From assembly GCF_025602895.1 (NCBI RefSeq), contig NW_026516229.1:124001-188000 (forward strand): a stretch of 64,000 nt of DNA. The letters are read 5' to 3'. Positions 24,229 to 45,505 of the stretch are shown piece after piece (positions within the stretch are counted from its first letter, which is position 1; every line of letters starts with the position of its first letter). Both the position numbers and the translations under genes were made by a program. The stretch comes from Polychytrium aggregatum. Its lineage: Eukaryota; Chytridiomycota; Chytridiomycetes; Polychytriales. The notes under the pieces were generated by a model. The model made no database searches, was not told the DNA's origin, and saw nothing but the letters and a program-made list of their open reading frames with translations.

Positions 24229-24494
24229 TGGTTTCTTGTGAGTTTGTGTTGAAACAGAAGATAAAGCACATACTGTCTGGTCATGGAGTCCCCGATACGA
24301 TAGCTTGCAACGAGGGGAGGGAGGGCGGCTACAGCAAGGCCGTCCTGAAGCATGCCCCGAGGGATAATGATGTGGTGATCGTCTTTGGTAGTGAGTCAAG
24401 GCGTCCAAGCAAGGGTTATGCATCCAGCCTCAGGACACAGCGGTGTGCTCGGTACTTTGGGCTGACATATGGGATCGTGAGGGTGTCCCGTTTG
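24229..24494 (+). mobile_element. Degenerate remnant(s) of the Fanzor/mariner element
   Basis: Two pieces in the same orientation. Positions 24229-24290 resemble the non-coding tail that follows the intact Fanzor stop (shared words TTTCTTGTG, CACATACT, TCATGGA). Positions 24330-24440 encode KAVLKHAPRDNDVVIVFGSE and GYASSLRTQRCARYF, matching KAVLRHAPIRTDVVIAFGNA and GYAPSPRRQRFARYF of the Fanzor at 27213-29579. A terminal-repeat-like GTGTCCCGTTT follows at 24483-24493. The frame is too short to encode a nuclease. The tail lying before the coding fragment, instead of after it, implies tandem or rearranged remnants. Confidence 0.75.
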
Positions 24495-26703: not shown

Positions 26704-27122
26704 AGTGGGAGTAGCGGTCTGTGGGGCTGGTATCGAAAGTCTATGACAGAAACGGAATTATCCGTCGAGGGTGGACTACTTTTCAAGCACGAGTGTAAAC
26801 GGCTGACGTCCAGGCGCATTGGACAGAACCTCGGCCGAATCACGGAGCGCATGTTCGCTCTTGGCATTTGTTCCCTCGCAGCGATGGCGCCACCAAGCTG
26901 ATTGGATGTGAAGGCACACGAATTGGACCGAGCCACTCTGTTTTTTTGGGTCCTGGTTCTGGATCCTGCACCCATCCCTCATCGCCAAACAGTGTATCCA
27001 AGGAGAGCGGGAAGCAAGCGAAATATCCGCACACTCCAAGAGATGCGATGACCCATAAAACAGACGGACGCTACGGCCTTTCCCGGGAGAGCTGTGCTGA
27101 CATGCCCGCCGACTACACTTTA
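26704..27122. other. Intergenic region between coiled-coil gene and Fanzor element
   Basis: About 420 bases with no gene. It presumably includes the promoter of the minus-strand coiled-coil gene. It also contains the DNA immediately beyond the 3' end of the Fanzor element, which by analogy with TnpB/Fanzor would supply the guide portion of this copy's fRNA. Confidence 0.5.
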
Positions 27123-27123
27123 T

Positions 27124-27212
27124 TCAGAAAAAACGGGACAATATAGCCGTTTCCATGAACATGTAGTATGTGCTGTGCTCGCGTCAAGCAAAGCCACAAG
27201 AAATAAAACAGA
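27124..27212 (-). ncRNA. Candidate Fanzor fRNA (OMEGA RNA) scaffold, element 3' tail
   Basis: The 89 bases between the Fanzor stop codon and the terminal inverted repeat. The equivalent tail is preserved in the deletion copy at 44606-44691 and more loosely at 24229-24290, with shared words TTTATTTCTT, CATACTACATGTTCATGG and CCCGT. Family knowledge: TnpB/Fanzor guide RNAs overlap the nuclease 3' end and run to the element boundary, with the guide taken from flanking DNA. Conservation here is direct observation. The RNA itself is inferred, and its 5' end probably lies inside the coding region. Confidence 0.5.
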
Positions 27213-29579
27213 TCACTTTGGCAGCCTCCGAGTGAAGACCGCCGGTCGCTCTCCGATCTCCACAATCGACCTGCACACTATGATCATGTTGCGCGCCGCA
27301 TTGACGTCGCGATTCCACACTGTCCGGCAGCTGGGATTCTTGCAGCTCCTGACAAAGTGGGAATTCGCAACACTGGGCGCATCGAGTCCTTCCAACCGAA
27401 CTGGCTCCAGGCAGTTGGAGCACACCTGCGAGGTGTTGAACTCGTTCGTCGAGGCCACCTTGATGCTTCCATGAGGGCGATGTGGGTGGCGACGGTGGTG
27501 CTCGAATTGCTCAAAGTACCGAGCAAACCGCTGCCTCCGAGGGCTGGGTGCATAGCCCTTGCCTTGTCGCCATGACGCATTGCCAAAGGCGATCACCACA
27601 TCGGTCCGTATCGGGGCGTGCCTCAGGACGGCCTTGCACATCCTGTCGACGGCCACTTGGCGTCTCCTGTGGCCCGTGAATCGATGGTGACGGGCCTTCT
27701 TGCCAAGGTGGAAGTCGAGCTGCACTCGCAGCTCCGGTCGCAGGACATGGGTGAGATGGACCTTGAAAGCCTCCGAGGACTGCACCTTGGGCGAGGGGGT
27801 GGTCGACATCCAGGTCTCGATGCTGAGTCGATACTTCATGATATTGTGCCACTTGGTGTTGGACGTATGGCCACACATGTGCTGGTAGTGGCCATTGGAG
27901 AATGAGACCACCTCGTCTTGGTGGCCCGGTGCTTGGATGACCGCCGTGAAGATGGAGCCGACGCCTGGGTCGATTCCAATCCAAGTGGTCTTGTCGGGGT
28001 CTGGGTCGCCGATGTGGGCCTGGATACGCTGCTCGGAAGTCGGAGGAGGCTCGGAGGTCTCGGTGCGATCGGTTCGACGCACAAACTTGACGAGGCCGAT
28101 GGTGCATCCAATGCCATCGGTGCTGATCTCGTAGTTGAACAGCTTCTTGTTCACGTCCCGCTCTTGGAAGAGGGAACTACGCAGCTTGAAGCAACTGCGC
28201 CAGAGACGATCCTGGTTGTTGACACCGTCCTCACCTTCTTCCTTGAGCTTGTCCCTGGTGAGGCCAAGGCGTTTCTTTGGACCAAGGAGTTCCCAGAGAG
28301 TGACCGTGTCGATCTTGACATACTTGGCCTTGGTGGTGCACAGAGGGACCATCGTGCACACGGCCGGAGAAGTGTCGAGAGCGAGCTGCTTGAGGGCCCA
28401 GTTGATCCTGGATGCCAGCTTGTTGATCTTGGACTTGGTGGTACCGAGCTCAGACTTGGCCTTGGTGAACCTCTTGTCGTCGGAGGGAATGCCTTGGGTA
28501 GTGAGCTCGTCCAGCTTGGCCTGGCGCTGCAACTCGGTGACTCGGAGGGCGGGCATGTCACAGTCGATCCACTTGTGGACATCGTCCTGCATCTTGTCCC
28601 GGGCAAGGAAACCCACATGGTGTGAGAGGCGGTGGAGGGCCCGGAAGCGGTCCTGGTCGTTGCTGTACCGAAACTCGTCCAGGACGTGGCCAAAGTCTGG
28701 ATAGAGGAACTCGATATCGGCCTTGGGTGGAGTCTGCCCTGGTTTCTCGAAGAGCTCAAGACAAGCCTCGATGGCGTCGTGCTTGTGCTTGTTGGCTGGG
28801 AAGACGGCAGCGCAGAAGCGGCGAAGGAGTCGCCAGTAGGCCAGGTCGAGGTGGGTGGTGCAGTTGGTGGCATAGGCATTGACAGCCAGTGTGAGAAGCT
28901 GACTGTGAACACCATCAGGCAGACGAGGGGCCGGAGGCAGGTCTGCGTGCCGAGTGGTCTGGTAGTCGCGAAAGGAAGCGACCAGATGCTCGTTGTATTT
29001 CTCATTGTCCCCGGTCGGGGAGAGGGCACCGTCCTGGACGATCTTAAAGCACTGGCGAACGAAAGCAGGGGTGGACTTGGAGATGACGGGGACGGGAAGA
29101 TCCTGCTCGATGCACCGGAGGATGTGCAGGTTGAGCAGCCTGGATGCCTCGAACTGAATCTGGGTCATGGCCTCGACGGTGGCCTGGATCTTGTCGCGGA
29201 GAGCGGGATTGAGACAACAGCCATCCATCGTCTGCTTGAAGCAGCTGAACTGAGGGGCGGATGACCTTCCATCCACGAGTGGGACGACAGAACTCTTGAG
29301 GGGCCGGTATTTGGGACATTTGCTGGTGTTGCTTCGCTCGTGATCAGTGCCATCGCACTTGGGACATCGCTTGACAGGACCAGATGAGGGACCAGGCTCG
29401 GTGGGATCGACATCCATTGGATCTGCAGAAGCAGTGGTGGTGAGCAACGGAGCAACAGACGACCAAGCATGCGTGGGGTCAGAAGACGAACCAGAGACAG
29501 GCTCCGACTGTGACTTGGCTTTCTTGGGCCTGGGTGGCCGAGGCTGGCCATCACCGGTACCCTTACGCTTCGGAGGCAT
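27213..29579 (-). CDS. Fanzor (eukaryotic TnpB-like RNA-guided DNA nuclease)
   Basis: A 788-residue protein from one uninterrupted exon in an otherwise intron-rich region. The N-terminus is basic and possibly nuclear-localising (MPPKRKGTGD, RPPRPKKAKS) and is followed by a Cys/His cluster near residues 70-90 (CPKCDGTDHE). The C-terminal half carries a RuvC-like domain: WIGIDPGVGS with Asp537, VVIAFGNASW near residue 662-670 where canonical TnpB has a Glu, NEFNTS with Glu713, a zinc ribbon (CSNC at 720-723; Cys746, Cys751), and WNRDVNAARN with Asp758. A missing RuvC-II Glu with a substitute Glu about 47 residues later is what is described for Fanzor proteins. It would cut DNA guided by an fRNA from the element end. 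Context with a mariner transposase is typical of the family. Confidence 0.9.
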   Translation of the reverse strand: MPPKRKGTGDGQPRPPRPKKAKSQSEPVSGSSSDPTHAWSSVAPLLTTTASADPMDVDPTEPGPSSGPVKRCPKCDGTDHERSNTSKCPKYRPLKSSVVPLVDGRSSAPQFSCFKQTMDGCCLNPALRDKIQATVEAMTQIQFEASRLLNLHILRCIEQDLPVPVISKSTPAFVRQCFKIVQDGALSPTGDNEKYNEHLVASFRDYQTTRHADLPPAPRLPDGVHSQLLTLAVNAYATNCTTHLDLAYWRLLRRFCAAVFPANKHKHDAIEACLELFEKPGQTPPKADIEFLYPDFGHVLDEFRYSNDQDRFRALHRLSHHVGFLARDKMQDDVHKWIDCDMPALRVTELQRQAKLDELTTQGIPSDDKRFTKAKSELGTTKSKINKLASRINWALKQLALDTSPAVCTMVPLCTTKAKYVKIDTVTLWELLGPKKRLGLTRDKLKEEGEDGVNNQDRLWRSCFKLRSSLFQERDVNKKLFNYEISTDGIGCTIGLVKFVRRTDRTETSEPPPTSEQRIQAHIGDPDPDKTTWIGIDPGVGSIFTAVIQAPGHQDEVVSFSNGHYQHMCGHTSNTKWHNIMKYRLSIETWMSTTPSPKVQSSEAFKVHLTHVLRPELRVQLDFHLGKKARHHRFTGHRRRQVAVDRMCKAVLRHAPIRTDVVIAFGNASWRQGKGYAPSPRRQRFARYFEQFEHHRRHPHRPHGSIKVASTNEFNTSQVCSNCLEPVRLEGLDAPSVANSHFVRSCKNPSCRTVWNRDVNAARNMIIVCRSIVEIGERPAVFTRRLPK

Positions 29580-29831
29580 GGGGGCAGAGGATGCTGGATG
29601 CCTGCCAGTGGTACTGGTCAGAGCAGAGACTTTTTTTTATCGTACAATGGCGCGATGATCAGATCAAGGCGAGATGAAGGAAGAAAGCAGCAGGACGAAG
29701 GTGTGGCATTTATACCCGAGAGCAGGAGCCCGTCTGCGCGGGCTGGTTGGGGAAGTGACCCTGTTCAAAAATCGCCGAGAGGTTCAAGCCAGGGATGTGA
29801 ACGCGAAAATGGCGGCTTGATTGGAGGGAAC

Positions 29832-30764
29832 TCAACCCCAGAAGCGCATCGCTCGCTCAATCAGCCGTGGGAAGACATCTGGAAGCACCCTCCGAACGGC
29901 AGACTCAAACAGGGTCACCATCCCGACTCTGAACCCCTCGGACGCATTCAGCGCTGCCACCTTCCTGTACTGATGCTTCACAATCCCAAAGAAGTTCTCG
30001 ATGGGATTGAAGTCGGGTGAAGCAGGTGGGGTGAAGATCACTGACCATCCTCGGCGCTCGATGCAGTCCAGGACAGCCATTGTCTTGTGCATGCTGACAT
30101 TGTCCATCACAATCACAGAGTCGTCTGGGAAGGTCGCTCGCTCAAAGAACTCGACCATCGAGTGTGTCTTGAATGATGTGGGGATGTACATGCGATGCAG
30201 CACACCAGAGTGGTTGATTGCAAATGCAGCCGAGACAGACTTGTGCTTCATGTGATTGCGCTGGCGAAGCGGAGCACCCTTCGGCGAGTATCCGTAAAGA
30301 GGGAAAATGGATCTCCTGATCCCTGTCTCATCGACAGAAACGAATCGTCGTGGGTCGATGGAGCGGACCTGGTCCCTGAACTGTGCCACTCGCTCATCCA
30401 GTCGCTTGGACTTGTAGAGGTGTGTTGCCCTCTTGTGTGAGAGACCTGCTCGCTGGATGGCAGTGTGGCAGAGTGAGAGTGAAACTTTCTTCTGGAGGAT
30501 GGACTCGAGCTTGCATCGCAACACAGGACCAGTCTGGAACGGGTCCTGTTCAATCAGGGTGCGAATGACTGGACATGCCTGCTCGAAGAAAGTGGATCTG
30601 CGAGCTGGGACCCGGGATGGGTCATCCAGCTTGCATCCTCGGTGCCATCGATGGATGGTGCTCTCGGATACACTGAATATGGAGGCGACCTTACGCAGGC
30701 TATGGATGAGGGCGTAGCATCGCAATGCGGCGGTGCGAAAGTCGGATGTGTGGCGAATGGTCAT
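29832..30764 (-). CDS. Tc1/mariner-IS630 superfamily DD34E transposase
   Basis: A 310-residue, intronless cut-and-paste transposase. An N-terminal helix-turn-helix region (RKVASIFSVSESTIHRWHRG) would bind the inverted repeats, and a second HTH-like region follows (SLCHTAIQRAGLSHKRATHL). The DDE catalytic triad is complete: Asp145 in VSVDETGIRR, Asp221 in VIVMDNVSMHK, Glu256 in SPDFNPIENFFGIVK, with 34 residues between the last two. Length is normal for the family. It lies about 250 bases upstream of the Fanzor gene on the same strand and near one terminal repeat, so it probably mobilises both. The first 40 residues are also recognisable in the remnant at 44324-44691. Confidence 0.93.
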   Translation of the reverse strand: MTIRHTSDFRTAALRCYALIHSLRKVASIFSVSESTIHRWHRGCKLDDPSRVPARRSTFFEQACPVIRTLIEQDPFQTGPVLRCKLESILQKKVSLSLCHTAIQRAGLSHKRATHLYKSKRLDERVAQFRDQVRSIDPRRFVSVDETGIRRSIFPLYGYSPKGAPLRQRNHMKHKSVSAAFAINHSGVLHRMYIPTSFKTHSMVEFFERATFPDDSVIVMDNVSMHKTMAVLDCIERRGWSVIFTPPASPDFNPIENFFGIVKHQYRKVAALNASEGFRVGMVTLFESAVRRVLPDVFPRLIERAMRFWG

Positions 30765-30916
30765 GGCCAGCGCGCGATAACATTGGGTAACAAAATATTC
30801 GATGAATGGTCAAAAACCCGGGTGTCCCGTTTTTTATTGGATTGCCTGTAACCCAGTGCTAATTTCGCTGCGTAGCTACTCTCGCCCAACCTGTGTAATG
30901 CCTCGCGAATGTGCAG

Positions 30917-39176: not shown

Positions 39177-39258
39177 GACGCCGTGTCCGAGTGGTTATGG
39201 AGCTTGACTAGAAATCAAGTAGGCTCTGCCTGCGCAGGTTCGAGTCCTGCCGGCGTCG
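39177..39258 (+). tRNA. tRNA-Ser(AGA)
   Basis: An 82-nt tRNA with a long variable arm. The acceptor GACGCCG pairs with CGGCGTC. The anticodon arm CTTGA-CTAGAAA-TCAAG gives AGA, and the T arm contains GGTTCGAGTCC. The discriminator is G, typical of serine tRNAs. It is followed after only five bases by tRNA-Pro, with no T-run between them. Confidence 0.95.
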
Positions 39259-39263
39259 CTTGA

Positions 39264-39335
39264 GGGCTGATAGTGTAGTGGTAGCATACCTGCTTCGGGT
39301 GCAGGTGGTCGCGGGTTCAAACCCCGCTCGGCCCC
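39264..39335 (+). tRNA. tRNA-Pro(CGG)
   Basis: 72-nt cloverleaf identical to the copy at 9935-10006, anticodon CGG in loop TTCGGGT. A run of six T begins about seven bases downstream and is a good Pol III terminator, possibly serving the Ser-Pro pair together. Confidence 0.95.
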
Positions 39336-44006: not shown

Positions 44007-44323
44007 GGTGAATGAGATGCGAGGGGTGATTAGTGTCGAGTGTCGAGTGTGGGCGAAGTGGTGTGAGTGGATAGATGCTGGTCGAAGCGGACGGCGACGA
44101 CCCGATCAATAAATAGGAGCACGGCCAACAGAAAAAAAAGCGGACACGTGTCTTGGCAAGGTGTGAGGGACAGCAGCCGAGGATTTCGCAGCAGCTTCCC
44201 CACCAAGAGACATCTGCGGCGGCAACGGGACAGGACGGCACGGCAGGGGGAGAAAGGGGGCTTGGCTGGGGAGCCAGCTTGGTGGAGGACATGCGGCGGG
44301 CAACCGCACTTGGTATCCTCGAC
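44007..44323. other. Intergenic region upstream of eIF6
   Basis: About 320 bases containing the likely eIF6 promoter. No gene seen. Short direct repeats GTGTCGAGT occur near 44033-44047. Confidence 0.5.
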
Positions 44324-44691
44324 TCAGAAAACGGGACTGTTGCCGTTTCCACTGTGTCCATGTTGTCAGCGATAGCCTGTATGGTCGTTGACCGAATATT
44401 CCATTACCAAATACCATCGCGTGCTGGCCATGACCTTTCTGTGATGCGGTGCTACGCCCTCATCCAAAGCCTGAGAAACGTTGCCTCCATACTCAGTGTG
44501 TCCAAGAGCACCATTCACTGCTGGCACTCCGAGTCCAGTGTACATGTCGATTGTGTGGAGACCGGAGAGCGACTGGTGGTCTTCACTCAGAGGCTACCAA
44601 AGTGATCTGCTTTATTTCTTATGGTTTAGCTTGATGCGAGCCCATCATATACTACATGTTCATGGCAGGGGTGTGTCCCGTGTTTTTCTGA
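44324..44691 (+). mobile_element. 368-bp internally deleted Fanzor/mariner element (MITE-like)
   Basis: Bounded by TCAGAAAACGGGAC at the left and GTCCCGTGTTTTTCTGA at the right. It fuses the start of the transposase (RCYALIQSLRNVASILSVSK, STIHCWH at about 44446-44528, against RCYALIHSLRKVASIFSVSE in the intact copy) directly to the end of the Fanzor (VETGERLVVFTQRLPK, stop at 44603). The conserved non-coding tail then follows. About 3.3 kb between these points is missing. The copy cannot encode either enzyme but retains both ends, so it could be mobilised by a transposase supplied in trans. Confidence 0.9.
44606..44691 (+). ncRNA. Candidate fRNA scaffold retained in the deletion copy
   Basis: Tail homologous to 27212-27124 of the intact element. 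It shares TTTATTTCTT, a GCTTGA-GCGAGC stretch, and CATACTACATGTTCATGG before the terminal repeat. Retention of this segment with so little else suggests it matters for the element. Expression is not shown. Confidence 0.4.
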
Positions 44692-44797
44692 ATGAAATGT
44701 AAAACTGCGGTGTCTGGTTTCCTTCTGGATTGGCTGTTGGTAGTGGAAGGATGATAATTTTATGTAGCGAAAAATCTGCGACGGACTCAACAATTGA

Positions 44798-45346: not shown

Positions 45347-45418
45347 GGGGCCGAGCGGGGTTTGAACCCGCGACCACCTGCACCCGAAGCAGGTATGCTA
45401 CCACTACACTATCAGCCC
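45347..45418 (-). tRNA. tRNA-Pro(CGG), right-arm copy
   Basis: Exact inverted copy of 39264-39335; anticodon CGG. A run of A on the plus strand just outside (about 45335-45340) is the T-run terminator on the coding strand. Confidence 0.95.
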
Positions 45419-45423
45419 TCAAG

Positions 45424-45505
45424 CGACGCCGGCAGGACTCGAACCTGCGCAGGCAGAGCCTACTTGATTTCTAGTCAAGCTCCATAACCACTCGGACACG
45501 GCGTC
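45424..45505 (-). tRNA. tRNA-Ser(AGA), right-arm copy
   Basis: Exact inverted copy of 39177-39258; anticodon AGA. It lies five bases upstream (in transcription order) of the Pro tRNA. Confidence 0.95.

Follow-up and report, generated by a model that had tools for sequence, protein, structure and literature searches.

The closest described counterparts of the element analysed here are transposable elements that carry a Fanzor1 gene. In Spizellomyces punctatus, Spu-1 holds its Fanzor1 gene (SpuFz1) between inverted repeats; the bases conserved ahead of the 5' repeat match the target-adjacent motif (TAM), a guide RNA comes from the 3' end, and many short 'ghost' elements keep the RNA region without the gene (PMC10432273). 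For the Spizellomyces Fanzor elements, the accessible text of that paper gives CA as conserved before the 5' repeat and CATA as the tested TAM. According to excerpts of Bao and Jurka (PMC3627910), PGv-1 and PUl-1 are elements that each combine Fanzor1 with a mariner-like transposase and have TA duplications. In SfAV and other insect viruses, the Fanzor1 guide RNA (reRNA, or omega RNA) has three stems and a scaffold that includes the terminal inverted repeat (TIR) and the target-site duplication (TSD), with reads extending about 15 nt beyond the TSD; the available part of the same source already states that Fanzor elements can reach hundreds of copies (PMC10711439). Here, we describe an element in a 64,000-nucleotide stretch of the Polychytrium aggregatum genome (GCF_025602895.1, contig NW_026516229.1, positions 124,001 to 188,000 of the forward strand), hereafter the window. 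This element is probably best explained as an IS630/Tc1/mariner-type cut-and-paste transposon carrying a complete Fanzor1 system, as judged from the sequence features listed below.

27116–30848, minus strand: whole element in the sense of the Fanzor gene, 3733 bp, delimited by an alignment of 20 copies and a second contig (C172)
30849–30850, no strand: putative TA target-site duplication on the 5' (transposase) side, preceded by T on the minus strand, here GTTA
27114–27115, no strand: putative TA target-site duplication on the 3' (Fanzor) side, paired within the predicted reRNA stem
30823–30848, minus strand: 5' terminal inverted repeat, CAGGCAATCCAATAAAAAACGGGACA
27116–27140, plus strand: 3' terminal inverted repeat, CACTTTATTCAGAAAAAACGGGACA
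29832–30764, minus strand: DD34E transposase, 310 amino acids, with D145, D221 and E256
27213–29579, minus strand: Fanzor1-type protein, 788 amino acids, with D537 in a DPG motif, E713, zinc ribbon C720/C723/C746/C751 and RD at 757–758
27114–27245, minus strand: predicted reRNA (omega RNA) scaffold formed by the terminal 132 nt, which take in the Fanzor stop codon, the 3' repeat and the TA

The locus is an IS630/Tc1/mariner-type element with inverted ends and flanking TA dinucleotides. The comparison covered the 20 copies with the highest Fanzor protein scores, the window copy included; two of them (L024 and L025) represent one site on two contigs. The 20 copies are 95–98% identical, and the window copy differs from each of the 19 others by 3.3–4.7%. 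Read on the minus strand, the element begins at 30848 and ends at 27116, and the alignment sets the ends as TA followed by CAGGCAATCCAATAAAAAACGGGACA on the transposase side and CTGAATAAAGTG followed by TA on the Fanzor side. The original prediction had recognised two uninterrupted genes between inverted ends, which are present as open reading frames (ORFs) of 788 and 310 amino acids, but its limits of 27123 and 30836 are too short. The two ends have a 13-bp core in common without mismatch, and the outer part of the 3' repeat is unlike the 5' repeat. The aligned copies show the terminal letters CAGGCAATCC... and ...TAAAGTG with TA flanking each, and TA adjoins both ends in 18 of the 20, the exceptions being L037 and L040. 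Because no empty site was found, the TA is a duplication that we infer. The 5' end of L037 is without CAGGC, and the adjoining TATCCCGC is also present after its 3' end, as if this end had been repaired rather than normally inserted.

The transposase carries D145, D221 and E256 at the positions originally given, with 34 residues between the last two, in keeping with D34E spacing. It matches Pfam DDE_3 (E 2.4e-22) and passes the NCBIfam transpos_IS630 model (119.9 bits, cut-off 100), which supports the earlier assignment to a Tc1/mariner element. Seven of the 20 copies lack the same stretch towards the 3' end of the gene (about window 29841–29980) and have about 36 other bases instead; this recurrent loss truncates the transposase C-terminus and is found at many sites.

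The second protein is supported as a Fanzor1-type protein, as had been proposed, and its residues D537, E713 and D758 stand where they were predicted. Its TNB / OrfB zinc-ribbon domain passes the Pfam threshold (PF07282, 36.8 bits, cut-off 26.3, E 4.4e-9). The proposed profile check is therefore borne out at the level of this domain but not by full-length TnpB models, which stay far under threshold (NCBIfam TnpB, 25.5 bits, cut-off 100). The published Fanzor/TnpB motif, D-X(125-275)-[TS][TS]-X2-C4-X(5-50)-RD as given in the accessible part of Bao and Jurka (PMC3627910), is found as D537, 178 residues, T716-S717, C720/C723/C746/C751, five residues and R757-D758. A DPG signature at the first RuvC aspartate and an alternative catalytic glutamate (Ealt) are described as Fanzor traits in excerpts of PMC10711439; here, D537-P-G is constant across 15 aligned copies, and E713, three residues before the TS pair and with an identical codon in 20 of 20 copies, is placed as Ealt would be. 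Towards the N-terminus, C72/C75/H80/C88 is likewise constant across the 15 aligned copies. We take it to be a CCHC-like zinc knuckle, and the N-terminus itself presumably resembles a nuclear localization signal. Among PHROGs, the matches fall into generic families (transposase, DNA-binding or excisionase) or into unknown ones. No viral relatives came from two scans of viral contigs or from a tblastn search of phage records, the first scan using N-terminal peptides only, so that distant relatives could escape it.

The last 132 nt of the element are predicted to form the reRNA scaffold. Its fold has a z-score of -3.5 in the window copy and of -3.8 in copy L027, where it is the best-folding of 110 segments over both strands. 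In the predicted outermost, last stem, the 3' terminal repeat and the TA pair with the sequence immediately upstream; this pairing would account for the divergence of the outer 3' repeat from its 5' counterpart. In an alignment of 28 distinct sequences, pairing holds in 97.9% of the cells of the predicted stems, and the last 88 Fanzor codons hold six shared synonymous variants against 15.2 expected, in a region picked post hoc. An AATAAA reads outward in the 3' terminal repeat (CTGAATAAAGTGTA; 27114–27127, minus strand), is kept in 25 of 28 aligned ends and is also part of the predicted stem; one-base variants of it stand in the C135, C2 and C159 ends. It could serve as a poly(A) signal and so bring about transcript cleavage within flanking host sequence.

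The family is abundant. Within the 64.68 Mb and 418 contigs searched, two 40-base pieces, one from the 3' end and one from the Fanzor N-terminus, are found 325 and 240 times, respectively (at most three mismatches); family pieces recur 235–332 times and reversed control patterns 0 times, so that chance is ruled out. The genome-wide search suggested in the original prediction thus yielded hundreds of related pieces. Among 100 listed flanks on each side, 83 are distinct at 5' and 88 at 3'; distinct sites are fewer than pieces because some sites are present on two contigs. We read ten distinct short derivatives, in three size classes near 312, 385 and 1114 bp (including the TA at each end). All ten retain both ends and at least about 165 nt of the 3' end, although derivatives without the 3' end could not appear, as sampling started from lists of exact ends. 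They correspond in sequence to the ghost type, or miniature inverted-repeat transposable elements (MITEs), with the same ends, no Fanzor gene and the predicted guide-RNA region retained.

Insertion sites carry a one-sided preference. A T stands directly before the 5' TA at 174 of 180 exact ends genome-wide (two-contig sites counted twice) and at 81 of the 83 distinct listed sites, against a background of 12% of TA sites in the window; the next base outward is A or T in 64 of the 83. Beyond the 3' TA, the 14 freely read bases show hardly any preference. We predict W-TTA, with TA as its last two bases, as the TAM, since the T is one-sided, unlike a symmetric transposase preference, which would leave its complement beyond the opposite end, and since the CA/CATA arrangement of Spizellomyces offers a parallel.

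The window copy is not demonstrably young, contrary to the original prediction. Contig C172, taken as the other haplotype, holds an element of this family at the identical site (a 4166-base match of 99.86% identity, in which about 100 bases belong to the element; one mismatch in 628 bases on the other flank), so the insertion predates the haplotype split or was copied between haplotypes. With an element present at the site on both contigs, and about 4% difference among the copies, the label 'recent' lacks support. Nor does the lack of introns help, because all copies read are intronless and the trait therefore carries no age information.

Copies of the family are mosaic. For common variants among 19 copies, linkage (r2) falls from 0.62 below 5 bp to 0.32 at 5–20 bp, 0.12 at 20–50 bp and 0.08 at 50–100 bp, against a shuffled baseline of 0.055, and four-gamete counting requires at least 85 exchanges. 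Bodies also differ at shared sites. The window site has matching flanks on two contigs, with the 3733-bp element on C190 and, on C172, an internal-deletion derivative of 311 bp (including the TA at each end). At L024/L025 the 1500-base flanks are 99.9% and 99.0% identical, while the bodies alternate between identical and unrelated-looking blocks; the same-site pair L029/L055, compared over short flanks, has about 100 differences. In C8/C135 and C2/C159, two pairs chosen for differing, the sides match at 100% and 99.7% over 331–341 bases (a few element bases included), but the distance separating the Fanzor N-terminal piece from the 5' end is unequal, by 137 bp and 100 bp, respectively. In the counter-direction, four pairs with a nine-base 5' flank match keep this distance within 4 bp, and one short-derivative site is identical on both contigs (C190 and C56), private variants included. 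C119/C346, considered as one site from a nine-base flank, was dropped as the flanks do not match, and C68/C363 was left out for want of a second coordinate. Independent insertions at the same TA are unlikely for the same-site pairs, C2 and C159 sharing an unusual end variant. The mosaic copies and differing same-site bodies suggest ectopic gene conversion as the simplest reading, unless the assembly misleads. In the titles and abstract openings of the Fanzor literature examined, gene conversion among Fanzor copies is not described.

We postulate that the transposase would move the element into W-TTA sites, and that the 3' end of the Fanzor transcript would yield a reRNA about 130 nt long, with the terminal repeat and the TA in its last stem and the host DNA just below 27114 serving as its guide. 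After excision, the Fanzor–reRNA complex would recognise its own empty site through the W-TTA TAM and then the guide match, and would cut it. Repair from the chromosome still bearing the element would keep the element at the donor site, and repair that switches to other copies would produce mosaic bodies and spread short derivatives. A bolder extension is that the Fanzor rather than the transposase determines the survival of insertions, with the TAM acting as a second site filter and breaks at emptied sites being repaired from any copy. We give this extension only a small chance of being correct. If it were true, the hundreds of dispersed copies would form one freely recombining population, in which copies exchange their bodies and each site retains its own guide.

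Several results weigh against the system as we read it. The match to the solved Spizellomyces Fanzor is weak (E 0.18 over 48 C-terminal residues), as is the profile comparison with it (E 0.097). Covariation does not support the predicted stems, with one two-sided pair change, equalled in 133 of 500 shuffles, and with further pair types and the covariation score under most shuffles, although variation among the 28 sequences is too low to assess it well. The selection and intactness figures are biased upward because the copies were chosen by Fanzor score. Empty sites were not found either: 29 joined flanks gave no cross-junction match in a search that scored 40 of the 418 candidates, so that homing was not directly seen, nor was the T as a host base. 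The T could reflect the target preference of the transposase alone, the Fanzor being irrelevant to where copies lie, an account that we regard as a serious contender even though we lean against it. It agrees with the T found before the TA in ten of ten distinct short derivatives, which lack the Fanzor gene, and with an A directly beyond the 3' TA that is somewhat over background (21 of 88 distinct sites against 12%). Yet one transposase would be expected to act at both ends and to leave a symmetric preference, and the A excess at the opposite end is small; the derivatives are no clean control, since they retain the predicted reRNA, and the Spizellomyces TAM, in the accessible text of PMC10432273, has a comparable arrangement.

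Whether the system is still maintained bears on a further account, in which the family is a decaying fossil and the window copy is open by luck. Stops interrupt 11 of the 57 full-length Fanzor matches scored (out of 1262 candidates), the transposase is open in only 6 of the 20 fetched copies and broken or shortened in 14, and old relics of about 80% identity lie within the same window. We nevertheless consider this unlikely. The other 46 scored Fanzor matches have no in-frame stop, though the best were scored; the Fanzor ORF is open to its end in 15 of the 20 fetched copies and broken in 5; all six copies with an open transposase also have an open Fanzor; and only 9 of 79 transposase matches spanning at least 305 of 310 residues contain a stop. 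The ratio of nonsynonymous to synonymous variants, relative to the neutral ratio expected on the basis of non-coding and four-fold sites, is well under neutral in the Fanzor gene even for shared variants (0.47, 0.27 and 0.35 for variants in one, two to three, and at least four copies); the corresponding transposase values are 0.41, 0.71 and 0.38. Variants per site are fewer in non-coding (0.183) than in four-fold positions (0.345). As regards RIP-like mutation, C>T and G>A changes together account for 136 of the 305 single-copy variants. Rather more doubtful still is that the mosaics and the differing same-site bodies are assembly artefacts, with haplotypes or repeats misjoined or mispolished. 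Linkage decays over tens of bases, near the scale of assembly words, as such errors would allow. Against them stand the lack of any N in 348.6 kb of sequence (overlaps counted), the long identical blocks adjoining diverged ones in L024/L025, the end variant common to C2 and C159 despite their internal difference, and the short derivative that C190 and C56 hold in identical form. We retain the transposon carrying a complete Fanzor1 system as the preferred reading.

Older traces of the family lie elsewhere in the window.

44393–44701, plus strand: old internal-deletion derivative of the 385-bp class, 81–84% identical, with the same internal junction
24334–24462, plus strand: degenerate Fanzor gene fragment, 80% identical

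The first of these shows the 385-bp class to be old. At 44320–44375, 5' of this derivative, the sequence looks by eye like a 3' end of this family in inverted orientation, so that relics may be nested here. Outside the window, a Fanzor C-terminal relic (65% identical) at L027:5854–6241 lies near an intact copy, and L041:6920–7466 has 38–44% identity to Fanzor residues 69–249, perhaps marking a second, more distant Fanzor family of this genome. A tRNA gene pair is duplicated in inverted orientation with equal scores at 39177–39335 (plus strand) and 45347–45505 (minus strand).

To our knowledge, the natural role of Fanzors for their transposons is still unproven. The present family, which counts hundreds of copies in a single genome, unites transposase and Fanzor genes that are both open with a predicted guide RNA, short derivatives and a sharply defined site motif. 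It thereby opens tests of W-TTA as a TAM, of element retention at emptied sites and of nuclease-driven exchange between copies.

By its sequence features, the layout closely matches published Fanzor1 elements. It resembles Spu-1 in its Fanzor gene between inverted repeats, its conserved bases before the 5' repeat, its guide RNA at the 3' end (predicted here) and its ghost elements. The accessible text on Spu-1 reports no transposase found between its repeats (PMC10432273), whereas a DD34E transposase lies in the same element here; the TAM is CATA there and predicted to be W-TTA here, and the protein similarity that we found is weak and confined to the C-terminus. With PGv-1 and PUl-1 the element has in common a mariner-like transposase together with Fanzor1 and TA duplications (putative here). 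PGv-1, as described in excerpts of PMC3627910, is single-copy with a further endonuclease gene, in contrast to two genes and hundreds of copies here. The layout of the insect-virus reRNA is the same as that predicted here; the SfAV element is given in the available part of PMC10711439 as non-autonomous, in two copies and of unknown transposon family, while our reRNA is known by prediction alone. The TnpB systems of IS200/IS605 and IS607, in excerpts of the same source, likewise pair a RuvC–TNB nuclease with a right-end guide RNA and a left-end TAM (the latter two predicted here), with transposases other than the one found here. What sets the Polychytrium element apart as notable is that transposase, nuclease and predicted guide RNA are kept together.

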